DNA of 64,000 nucleotides, from positions 248,001-312,000 of the forward strand of contig NZ_AHWA01000005.1 in the NCBI RefSeq assembly GCF_000247645.1, in the 5' to 3' direction. The stretch's first letter is position 1; each line of letters begins with the position of its first letter. The notes below the pieces were generated by a model that saw nothing but the letters and a program-made list of their open reading frames with translations, did no database searches and was not told where the DNA came from. The DNA is from Salinibacterium sp. PAMC 21357 (GTDB lineage Bacteria > Actinomycetota > Actinomycetes > Actinomycetales > Microbacteriaceae). Shown one piece after another: positions 1,071 to 58,723 of the stretch. Position numbers and translations under genes: made by a program.

Positions 1071-1290
1071 CAATGTCAAATGCCAAAAACCCGACTGTGT
1101 TTATGGGAATTGTTCTAATCAGAACAGTTTCGTTTATGCAGCGGATTCCTTTGGAAAAAGATATAAACAACAAAGCAAGTCAGTATTGATTTGTTCTGTC
1201 AGTTTCAAACTTGTTGCCTCGACACCCTATTCCGGGTGCGGGTGACACAAGATGTGCTTCTGCAAGCTTGCTTGTGGTTGCAATCAAACA

Positions 1291-6441
<5,151 letters not shown>

Positions 6442-6618
6442 CCCCACCTCACTGGGAGTCCGTAAGGACTTCGAATGGTGAATGAGAAGAATTCTCGCGT
6501 CCACTTTGTGGTTCCCGATTTACGGTCGGGAACTGCGCCCAGCACACACTGCTGAGCACCCACCTCGGTGGAAGCTCTGTGATGTGAACTGGCCCAGACT
6601 GATACATAAATCAATAGT

Positions 6619-6737
6619 GTTTCGGCGGCCATAGCGAGAGGGAAACGCCCGGTTACATTCCGAACCCGGAAGCTAAGACTCTCTGCGCCGATGGTACTGC
6701 AAGGGGGACCTTGTGGGAGAGTAGGACACCGCCGGAC
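6619..6737 (+). rRNA. rrf: 5S ribosomal RNA
   Basis: About 119 nt beginning GTTTCGGCGGCCATAGCG and ending GGACACCGCCGGAC; the two ends pair to form helix I. The internal GAACCCGGAAGCTAAG and GAGAGTAGG segments are typical of actinobacterial 5S. It lies about 180 nt after 23S, completing the standard operon order. Confidence 0.96.
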
Positions 6738-56189: not shown

Positions 56190-56513
56190 TTAGTTCGCAG
56201 AGTCGACGAGCTTGAGCCCCACCACGCAGCCGACGAGCCCCATGAGCAGCAGTACCTTGACCCACGAGACGGGTTCTCCGCCGAAGATCATCGCATAGGT
56301 GACGGTCAGCGCGGCGCCGATGCCGACCCAGATTGCGTAGGCGGTGCCAATGGGGATCTCGCGCATGGCATAACCGAGGCCACCCATGCTGGCGAGAATC
56401 GCAACGCCGAAAATTACGGTAGGCCAGAGCTTCGTGAAGCCCTCCGACTTGCCGAGGGCGGTGGCCCACACGGCTTCGAGCACGCCAGAAAGAATCAGAA
56501 TAAGCCAGTACAC
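56190..56513 (-). CDS. gdx: SMR-family guanidinium exporter (Gdx/SugE)
   Basis: A 107-residue, four-helix small multidrug resistance protein. The essential Glu13 sits in GVLEAVWATALGKSEGFT; Trp16 and the LGKSEGFT sequence mark the SugE/Gdx branch rather than EmrE, and it continues with the SMR pattern PIGTAYAIWVGIGAALTV. It works as a dual-topology homodimer exchanging guanidinium for protons. Start is GTG with AAGGAG 6 bases ahead. A guanidine-III riboswitch candidate overlaps the leader immediately before this ribosome-binding site. Confidence 0.92.
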   Translation of the reverse strand: MYWLILILSGVLEAVWATALGKSEGFTKLWPTVIFGVAILASMGGLGYAMREIPIGTAYAIWVGIGAALTVTYAMIFGGEPVSWVKVLLLMGLVGCVVGLKLVDSAN

Positions 56514-56525
56514 AACAGTCTCCTT

Positions 56526-56567
56526 GGCCAGTCTTGTCGCATACCCGGTACTGATCCGTCGTCGGGA
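56526..56567 (-). ncRNA. Guanidine-III riboswitch (ykkC-III) candidate
   Basis: Reading the minus strand, CCCGACGACGG, ATCAGTACCGGG, TATGCGACAAGA and CTGGCC follow in order. This reproduces the ykkC-III layout: a P1 stem (CCCG with CGGG), conserved ACGA in its loop, a UCAG element able to pair with CUGG downstream to form the pseudoknot, and the conserved GACAAGA. AAGGAG of the gdx ribosome-binding site begins right after the last pairing segment, so ligand binding could control translation. The known class occurs in Actinobacteria upstream of SMR exporters. Confidence 0.72.
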
Positions 56568-56692
56568 GCCGACTATCGCGGCTACCCTCTCACCGTATCA
56601 AATCAGGGCTAAATTGGCAGGGATGTTGGCGGCAGCGCAGCGCTGAACGTCGTTCGGAGGCTAGAGAACGGGCTCGCCTCTCCGCTTCGGCC

Positions 56693-58723
56693 CTAGCGCT
56701 CGAGGGTGCGGCGAGCTGCGGCCACCACTGCCTCCAGCGTGATCCCACGTCGAGCCATCACTTGAGCACCCGAACCAGATTCGCCAAACTCTTCGACGCT
56801 CACTACTTCGCCGTCGAGCCCGACCCAGCGGTACCAGCCGTCACCGCGTCCAGCCTCAACGGCAACACAGGCGGCAATAGCTGCAGGGAGAACGCTCTCG
56901 CGGTACGCAGCATCGCTCGCCGCAAACCACTCGACGCTCGGCATCGAGATAACCCGAACGCCGACGCCGTCCGCGGCCAATGCTTCGGCTGCCTCAAGGG
57001 CGAGTGAGACCTCGCTGCCGGTGGCAATAAGTGCGAGATCGAGGCCGTCGCCGTGCTGCCACGCAACATAGCCGCCGTGGGCGACCTTGGCATCCAAGTC
57101 GTCGCGTTCGTGCAGCACGGGAACATCTTGGCGAGAAAACACGAGAGCCGTGGGGCCAGCGGGTTGCGCGATCAGGCGCTTCCACACGGAGACGACCTCT
57201 GCGGCATCCGCGGGGCGCACAACATCAAGCCCGGGCACGGTGCGCAGTGAGGCAATCTGCTCAACGGGCTGATGCGTCGGCCCGTCCTCACCAACCGCAA
57301 CACTGTCGTGAGTGAACACATAAACGACAGGCAACTGCATGAGAGCTGCGAGGCGGATGCTCGGCCGCATGTAGTCGCTGAACACAAGGTAGGTCGACGC
57401 AAACGGTCGCCATGGCCCCTGAATCGCGATGCCGTTGAGTATCGCTGCCATGGCGTGCTCGCGTATCCCGAAGCGGATGAATTCGCCGCCGGGGTTGCTC
57501 GCGGTCACGGCGGAGCCGGGCACATCTACTCCCGTAGAGCCGGCGAGGTCTGCTGATCCGCCCCACAGCGATGACGTGCCCTGCAGTGCCTTGAGAGCGA
57601 CGCTGTTGAGTTTGCGGGTGGCCGATGGGGCGCCAACCGCGGGGAGTTTGATCGCCTCGAGTGCGCTCAGTGCTGCTGTCGCATCGGGCTTGCGGAAGGA
57701 GTGCCAGGCGCTCGCCGCGGCGGGCTCTGCAGCTTTCCACGTCGAGAGTGCCGCGTTCCATTCGTCTTCTGCGGCTTGGCCGCGAGTGAGGGCGCCGCGG
57801 GCAAAGGCGAGCCCGTCGTCGGTGATGAGGTCGTTGAGAGGGGCATCCGGAGCAAAACCGAGTGCACTTTTGATGGCCGCAACTTCGTCGTCGCCGAATC
57901 CGCCAGAGTGGGCAGCGGGCTTGCCAGAGAACTGCGCTGATGGTGCGCCAATCACGCTGCGCAGAGCGACGAATGTTGGCCGACCATCGCGTGATTGCGC
58001 GTCAGCGAGCACGGACTCAATCTCGTCAAGATTGCTGGCGTCGGCGATGTCGAGCACTCGCCAGCCGTAGGCGGCATAGCGTGCGCGCACGTCTTCGCTG
58101 AAGGCTGCTTCGCCGGTGGAGTCGATGGTGACGTTGTTGTCATCCCAAATCACGACGAGGTTGTCGAGGCCGAGAGTGCCGGCCAGGCTCGATGCTTCGC
58201 CGCTTACTCCTTCTTGCATACAGCCGTCGCCGGCGATGGCCCAAATGGTGGTGTCGAGCAGGTCGTTGTTTGGAGAGAAGAGGGCGCGCTCGCGGCGGGC
58301 GGCCAATGCCATGCCCACGGCAGAGGCGACTCCCTGGCCGAGGGGCCCGGTGCTCATTTCGATGCCGGGGGTGTGCTCGATCTCTGGATGCCCGGGGGTG
58401 CGGCTGTCGAGGGTGCGGCTTTTGGTCAGTTCGTCGAGCTCAAGCCCGTAGCCCGTCAGAAATAGCTGCACATACAGCAGCAGGCTGGCGTGGCCGGCGG
58501 AGAGCACGAGGCGGTCGCGGCCGAGCCAGGCGGGGTTGTGGGGGTTGTGGCGCAGGATCCGCTGGTAGAGCACGTGGGCGAGGGGCGCCAGCGCCATGGC
58601 TGTTCCGCCGTGGCCGTGGCCTTTGGCTTGCACGACGTGGGCGGGGATTGCGATGGCTGCGCGCAGGGAATCCGCTTCAGCGGGAGTGATGTTTCCTGAA
58701 AAGGGGAGGCCGGTTTCTGACAT
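56693..58723 (-). CDS. tkt: Transketolase
   Basis: A 676-residue, full-length thiamine-diphosphate enzyme. The N-terminal domain shows GHGGTAMALAPLAHVLY, LSAGHASLLLY, GPLGQGVASAVGMA and the ThDP motif GDGCMQEGVSGEA...NN (WDDNN). The middle domain has the catalytic Glu in RFGIREHAMAAILNG and VFTHDSVAVGEDGPTHQPVEQ. The C-terminal domain runs from about 555. The ATG at 58723 is preferred to a GTG at 58732, which lies in the operator. It converts ketose and aldose phosphates in the pentose phosphate pathway. Divergent from a ROK repressor, it likely serves the PTS substrate as a pathway-specific copy. Confidence 0.93.
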   Translation of the reverse strand: MSETGLPFSGNITPAEADSLRAAIAIPAHVVQAKGHGHGGTAMALAPLAHVLYQRILRHNPHNPAWLGRDRLVLSAGHASLLLYVQLFLTGYGLELDELTKSRTLDSRTPGHPEIEHTPGIEMSTGPLGQGVASAVGMALAARRERALFSPNNDLLDTTIWAIAGDGCMQEGVSGEASSLAGTLGLDNLVVIWDDNNVTIDSTGEAAFSEDVRARYAAYGWRVLDIADASNLDEIESVLADAQSRDGRPTFVALRSVIGAPSAQFSGKPAAHSGGFGDDEVAAIKSALGFAPDAPLNDLITDDGLAFARGALTRGQAAEDEWNAALSTWKAAEPAAASAWHSFRKPDATAALSALEAIKLPAVGAPSATRKLNSVALKALQGTSSLWGGSADLAGSTGVDVPGSAVTASNPGGEFIRFGIREHAMAAILNGIAIQGPWRPFASTYLVFSDYMRPSIRLAALMQLPVVYVFTHDSVAVGEDGPTHQPVEQIASLRTVPGLDVVRPADAAEVVSVWKRLIAQPAGPTALVFSRQDVPVLHERDDLDAKVAHGGYVAWQHGDGLDLALIATGSEVSLALEAAEALAADGVGVRVISMPSVEWFAASDAAYRESVLPAAIAACVAVEAGRGDGWYRWVGLDGEVVSVEEFGESGSGAQVMARRGITLEAVVAAARRTLER

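Follow-up and report, generated by a model that had tools for sequence, protein, structure and literature searches.

Guanidine-III riboswitches and the control of translation

The closest described relative of the leader studied here is the guanidine-III riboswitch (RF01763) of Thermobifida fusca, whose structure (5NWQ), as presented in parts of PMC5696562, combines a P1 helix and a P2 pseudoknot with the segments ACGA, GUACC and GACAAGA. The leader studied here shares these features and likewise stands in front of an SMR exporter gene. In sections of the same paper, ligand binding is proposed to disfavour competing structures and to make the ribosome binding site accessible. They also cite in-line probing by others in which P1 and P2 are paired without ligand, the RNA used being one that may or may not have included the start region (PMC5696562). 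According to passages of the review PMC12186494, guanidine-II acts as a translational ON switch, and guanidine-III combines translational ON control with protection from RNase E. The logic proposed for guanidine-II, in which the ligand-bound aptamer favours translation initiation, is the one considered below for guanidine-III. A helix at the start codon was not found for guanidine-III in the titles and abstract openings listed by literature searches, and may still have been published.

The leader of gdx in Salinibacterium sp. PAMC 21357

The window, that is the whole stretch of 64,000 nucleotides that was analysed, contains on its minus strand a match to the Rfam Guanidine-III model RF01763 at 56587-56523. 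With a score of 47.4 bits, this match exceeds the cut-off of 36 (E 9.7e-7 in a search of 64 kb with 4227 families), and it covers the full length of the model (positions 1-67 of 67). Besides Guanidine-III, only three rRNA genes of the window reach their Rfam cut-off; a rRNA operon (16S, 23S, 5S) lies near the window start (1291-6737, plus strand). A search of the whole genome, which is 99.8% complete, gave one guanidine-III match in total and no second one. The earlier note had read a ykkC-III (guanidine-III) pattern in front of an exporter gene and had proposed a covariance-model search, which now bears the reading out. All the segments it had named are present in the order that it gave, including an AAGGAG directly after the aptamer. 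Its range, 56526-56567, is slightly short, the match beginning at 56587 and including a further hairpin, P0.

Read on the minus strand, the leader consists of P0, CCCG, ACGA, CGGAUCAGU, ACC, GGG, UAUGC, GACAAG, ACUGGCC, AAGGAG, ACUGUU and GUG. Its features, taken from the sequence and the Rfam match unless another basis is given, are as follows.

56567-56583, minus strand: P0, a 5-bp hairpin AGCCG-CGAUAGU-CGGCU adjoining P1 (within the Rfam match)
56563-56566, minus strand: 5' arm of P1, CCCG, the partner of 56547-56544
56559-56562, minus strand: ACGA, which includes the guanidine-pocket bases C6 and G7
56550-56556, minus strand: 5' strand of P2, GAUCAGU, with G17 of the pocket at 56551
56554-56551, minus strand: UCAG (read from the sequence)
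56549-56544, minus strand: ACCGGG (read from the sequence)
56544-56547, minus strand: 3' arm of P1, CGGG
56533-56538, minus strand: conserved core GACAAG (consensus GACAAGA at 56538-56532)
56526-56532, minus strand: 3' strand of P2, ACUGGCC
56531-56528, minus strand: CUGG (read from the sequence)
56520-56525, minus strand: Shine-Dalgarno motif AAGGAG (sequence), placed apically in the hairpin proposed for the OFF state (fold)
56190-56513, minus strand: gdx, SMR exporter of 107 aa with a GTG start at 56513-56511 (Pfam PF00893)

The three pocket bases C6, G7 and G17 are all present, at 56561, 56560 and 56551 (roles and numbering after parts of PMC5696562). The leader can form an H-type pseudoknot with 4/4 pairs in P1 and 6/7 in P2, and the 3' strand of P2 ends 12 nt before the start of gdx, placing the aptamer in the context of an export gene. 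Compared with the T. fusca RNA described in portions of PMC5696562, P1 is CCCG/CGGG, with a compensated pair 3-22, and P2 keeps the A.C mismatch. In T. fusca the ribosome site is 16 nt from the 3' end of the aptamer, whereas here AAGGAG follows directly. The leader is almost certainly a guanidine-III (ykkC-III) riboswitch, a further member of the known class.

The gdx product reaches 75.9 bits against PF00893 (cut-off 23.7). With the NCBIfam SugE equivalog NF008512 it scores 82.2 bits, below the curated cut-off of 126; this is nonetheless the best of the 21 NCBIfam models listed for it. Its closest named relative is that of Salinibacterium amurskyense DSM 16400 (94% identical). Among solved structures it is closest to 6wk5 and the sister entries of 6wk5, and to 8vxu; 6wk5 is Gdx-Clo, a guanidinium/H+ antiporter. 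The alignment to 6wk5 is gapless over residues 2-103 (107 aa in the window, 105 aa in Gdx-Clo), and E13, W16, S42, Y59 and W62 occupy the same positions in both. These positions are given for Gdx-Clo in parts of PMC7695847, according to which Qac-type proteins carry Gly or Ala instead of W16. The product is thus supported as a Gdx-type SMR protein and putative guanidinium exporter, as the earlier note had held. A search of the whole genome for SMR genes revealed none other than gdx.

A proposed second fold across the start codon

What the earlier note had overlooked is a complementarity between 56544-56535, a strand of the aptamer, and 56517-56508, which spans the start codon. In the minimum-energy fold of the leader, calculated with ViennaRNA, in which pseudoknot and hairpin cannot be weighed against each other, the two segments pair across GUG:

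56535-56544, minus strand: 5' arm of the proposed OFF helix, GUAUGCGACA (aptamer strand; minimum-energy folds)
56508-56517, minus strand: 3' arm of the proposed OFF helix, UGUUGUGUAC, containing the GUG start (minimum-energy folds)

In the predicted ensemble, the start codon pairs with the strand formed by the core and the 3' side of P2 with a probability of 0.996. The minimum-energy fold has no anti-Shine-Dalgarno pairing of CUCC (56568-56565) with GGAG. When 189 other gene starts of the genome were grafted on the window strand, 3 paired their start codon as fully. In total energy, 38 of the same 189 grafts fold at least as low; the energy of the window hairpin is unremarkable, and this measure was rejected as a weak discriminator. 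With other leaders, grafts pairing as fully numbered 1/189 for L008, L009 and L010, 14/189 for L002 and 35/189 for L004, and 30/121 each for L104 and L106. In view of these weaker counts, the grafting test is sharp only for leaders of the window's own type.

In many relatives, the fold brings GCGACA-A-GACUG together with CAGUC-A-UGUCGU or something close to it, A33 facing the A of AUG. A strong match in other letters is retained by several leaders whose core differs, as judged by folding (L289, GACUGACU/AGUUAGUU; L183, GACGCACC/GGUGCGUC; also L076 and L098); by the same means no such match was seen in L005, L059, L097, L218 and L285. The 29 loci with other cores were read by eye and by folding, and some of their starts are doubtful (e.g. 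L138, L166).

It is fairly probable that this helix masks the start codon. A broader proposal is, on balance, also somewhat favoured by the sequences: actinobacterial guanidine-III riboswitches would share a second, conserved fold, with the ligand-core strand (GCGACAAGAC and the 3' arm of P2) doubling as an anti-start strand. Its partner would be the first gdx codons, the A of AUG facing an A as the single mismatch (A.A). Codon 2 and the surroundings of the ribosome site would then be selected by the switch, the two partners of the P2 3' arm would change together, and the genus of the window would have shifted the helix by about 5 bases onto GUG.

Comparative analysis of leaders

The leaders compared were picked by pattern (ACGA, GUAC, GACAAGAC, at least 3 P1 pairs and an M-x-W start): 289 loci were parsed, of which 243 had the canonical core and 227 a usable start, giving 210 distinct leaders. 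This choice fixed letters 17-20 and 34-36, together with at least 3/4 P1 pairs. The OFF-helix pairs A32-U+2, C31-G+3 and n27-U+7 (mostly G27) are therefore partly built in; columns -3 to -1 and +4 to +6 are free of selection.

Within the aptamer, several pair types occur at 1-24, 3-22, 16-37, 15-38 and 14-39 across the 210 leaders, as expected of covarying helices. Pair 16-37 is A-U in 129 leaders and C-G in 81; 15-38 forms in 208, where three pair types occur, and 14-39 in 182. Pair 13-40 is formed in only 31 leaders and is A.C in 90, so the P2 mismatch of the window is usual. Pair 3-22 is G-C in 203/210 leaders and C-G in six, the window included, and all six are headed by loci of its genus.

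The agreement between aptamer strand and start region was assessed on whole hairpins, given that single columns were mixed: among 20 column pairs, 38 with -5 was strong (1/5000) and 37 with -4 was not (511/5000), and a proof by covariation in a fixed register was dropped. Over 88 leaders less than 80% alike, native combinations of strand and start fold at -13.94 kcal/mol, against -13.14 kcal/mol for swapped ones (0/2000 permutations); over all 210 leaders the values are -14.34 and -13.44 (0/500 permutations). This swap test controls relatedness in part, and a comparison by family serves as a coarse control for it. With hand-assigned labels for 149/210 leaders (excluding 61 led by named loci, and with f1, the family of the window, cut from 62 leaders to 25 in the swap energies), 12/16 families show an interaction of the expected sign, with a mean of -0.49 kcal/mol, as do 10/11 of the families with at least 4 leaders. 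The sign is opposite in 4/16, three of which are single leaders. The hairpins of families f9, f10 and f14 are themselves weak.

Codon usage at the second position gives a partly concordant picture. Where codon 2 is a UCN serine codon, it is UCG in 77/129 cases, against 139/436 further on in the same genes. UCA is also enriched (19/129 vs 26/436); its third base does not pair, and this is a point that the helix does not explain. Alanine at codon 2 has no GCG bias (20/54 vs 245/723), which fits a helix that the G of an alanine codon would break.

Proposed control of gdx expression

It can be proposed that, without guanidine, 56544-56535 would pair with 56517-56508, enclosing GUG in a 10-bp helix with the Shine-Dalgarno motif in its apical part, and that ribosomes would initiate poorly. 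Guanidine would stabilise the pseudoknot (P1, P2 and triplex), which is built from the same strand; as the pseudoknot takes this strand from the helix, the start codon would be released and the exporter made. Translational ON control of gdx is very probable from the sequence. That the guanidine-III riboswitch turns on translation of a guanidinium exporter specifically through the freeing of the start by the pseudoknot is likely. Transcription termination was rejected as the output, no terminator-like site being present in 56400-56720. The pairing of P1 and P2 without ligand, as reported in the cited portions of PMC5696562, has to be counted against an OFF fold that masks the start.

A different reading places the effect on mRNA stability: the folded aptamer, close to the 5' end, would block scanning by RNase E, and the pairing of the start would be secondary. 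It is a possibility of some weight, albeit an unlikely one. Passages of PMC12186494 credit RNase E protection by guanidine-III to Richards and Belasco 2021, and the genome has one RNase E/G match. The position of a likely -10 box points the same way, as it puts the 5' end of the RNA close to P0:

56592-56597, minus strand: candidate -10 hexamer TACGGT with a TG one base upstream (TGATACGGT), from the TANNNT position in relatives

This TANNNT begins 31 nt before P1. A TANNNT beginning 48-21 nt before P1 occurs in 129/210 distinct leaders (shuffles: mean 31.5, maximum 45), and in 80/210 it lies at -30 or -31. A stem of at least 5 bp ending at P1 is found in 90% of the 210 leaders and in 18% of shuffles. 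Together, the stem abutting P1 and the placement of TANNNT suggest that the RNA would start within a few bases of P0. A sigma-70 scan gave another pair, TTGATA/GATAGT. Taken alone, however, RNase E protection leaves unexplained the GUC before the start (below), the UCG bias and the outcome of the swap test; it can also coexist with masking of the start.

If switching does act through translation, the hidden element may be either the start codon or the Shine-Dalgarno motif. The latter, in which competing structures would hide AAGGAG without ligand and pairing of the start would be incidental, follows the general proposal of exposure found in parts of PMC5696562. Predicted accessibilities make it improbable. 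When P0 and the aptamer are held as a block, the unpaired probability of the window's start codon rises from 0.004 in the free ensemble to 0.62, and that of the 210 leaders from 0.37 to 0.65, with a gain above 0.3 in 101 and a loss in 5. Grafts of unrelated starts under the same constraint go from 0.43 to 0.54, with a gain above 0.3 in 141/600. Holding the aptamer alone gives 0.37 to 0.59, with such a gain in 79/210 leaders and 78/480 grafts. The start is paired at 0.63, of which 0.48 is with the core/P2 3' strand; it is at least half paired with that strand in 127/210 leaders, in 95/600 unrelated-start grafts and in 73/600 grafts whose starts come from SMR genes lacking the aptamer pattern. 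In contrast, the accessibility of the Shine-Dalgarno motif falls when P0 and the aptamer are held, from 0.58 to 0.36 over the 210 leaders (down by more than 0.3 in 81, up in 8) and from 0.62 to 0.37 for the window leader; if only the aptamer is held, the value for the leaders drops to 0.44. The folds thus give no support to a freed Shine-Dalgarno motif, and this motif was rejected as the masked element. If the helix is real, the element that it masks would be the start codon, which, in these models, is most likely masked more than the Shine-Dalgarno motif. In its view that translation is a plausible level of switching, the earlier note is in this way supported and sharpened, the comparative data pointing to the start codon instead of AAGGAG as the hidden part.

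There remains the question of whether the start-region motif could belong to gdx genes as such, or to translation starts of these bacteria, independent of any switch. Codon 2 is coding sequence, and an Arthrobacter gdx (L039) carries GUC-AUG-UCG where a search up to E 1 finds no guanidine-III; it is possibly a case of a lost switch whose start region was left behind. Yet GUC precedes the start in 127/210 leaders, against 0/31 SMR genes without the aptamer pattern and 8/310 other genes of two genomes, and GUC-RUG-UC occurs in 81/210 leaders and in none of the SMR controls or other genes. The 31 SMR controls (40 fetched, 1 without an M-x-W start, 8 set aside as matching ACGA..GUAC) are mostly distant relatives, some near-identical, with 11 from one genus. 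Among the 8 set aside, the five that look aptamer-like (L344, L349, L350, L351 and L363) all have GUC and the other three do not. Independence from the switch accordingly has little chance of being right.

Distribution of guanidine-III leaders and their genes

A decayed or chance match can be given practically no weight: nothing in the window favours it, and against it stand the E value, the presence of the pocket bases and the recurrence of matches in related genomes. Counting matches at E <= 0.001, in genome sets that overlap, guanidine-III is found in 18/27 genomes of the genus (of which 17 exceed the cut-off), 146/299 of the family (138), 144/297 of the order (136) and 51/396 of the phylum (42). 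Among 80 named gdx loci, the GACAAG core is present by pattern in 68 and 5 others reach the Rfam cut-off. Four, all Agromyces gdx leaders (L087, L088, L089 and L093), stay below it at 30.1-32.6 bits, with a core lacking two bases (GAC--GAC). The remaining three, L039, L081 and L099, are without a match even when E values up to 1 are allowed.

In two genomes of the genus, guanidine-III is matched twice (G007, with L020 beside L011; G025, with L006 and L019). The second match of G007 scores 36.5 bits and has GUAGC for GUACC; the gdx frame downstream stops after about 18 codons, and this copy looks like a decaying one.

Other genes are found behind the aptamer. In L005 (gene at 1242-1490, minus strand) and L016 (1236-1490, minus strand), matches of 49.4 and 43.8 bits with the core GACACGAC precede, in place of gdx, a membrane protein of 82-84 aa of the CBU_0592 family (NCBIfam NF047864), a possible further guanidine-linked gene; by eye, L270, L281 and L285 have similar starts. 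A putative small multi-drug export protein (PF06695) follows the match in L184 (1017-1484, minus strand), which L166 resembles by eye. An arginase-family enzyme (PF00491) follows it in L161 (1577-2728, plus strand) and L172 (217-1410, minus strand), in line with speB, which is named in a portion of PMC2864571.

The five aptamer-like SMR leaders set aside above have a divergent-looking guanidine-III with the core GCACGAC or GAACGAC and score 21.5-28.1 bits (E 0.016-0.73), under the Rfam cut-off. As a score of 21.6 bits is also found at an unrelated place in L088, the weakest of them are not proof; guanidine-III may be under-called in these lineages.

Implications of the proposed start-codon helix

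Both the aptamer class and the exporter were already known, and the match itself is ordinary. What is new, and can be put to the test, is the anti-start helix proposed here, which would give guanidine-III switches a concrete OFF state. As judged from passages of PMC12186494, the guanidine-II aptamer is unrelated; the masking helix proposed here would be made of the ligand-core strand and the first codons. If true, the proposal names the bases to mutate, and it would explain why many of these gdx genes begin with GUC-AUG-UCG: in them, coding sequence would have been recruited into an RNA switch.
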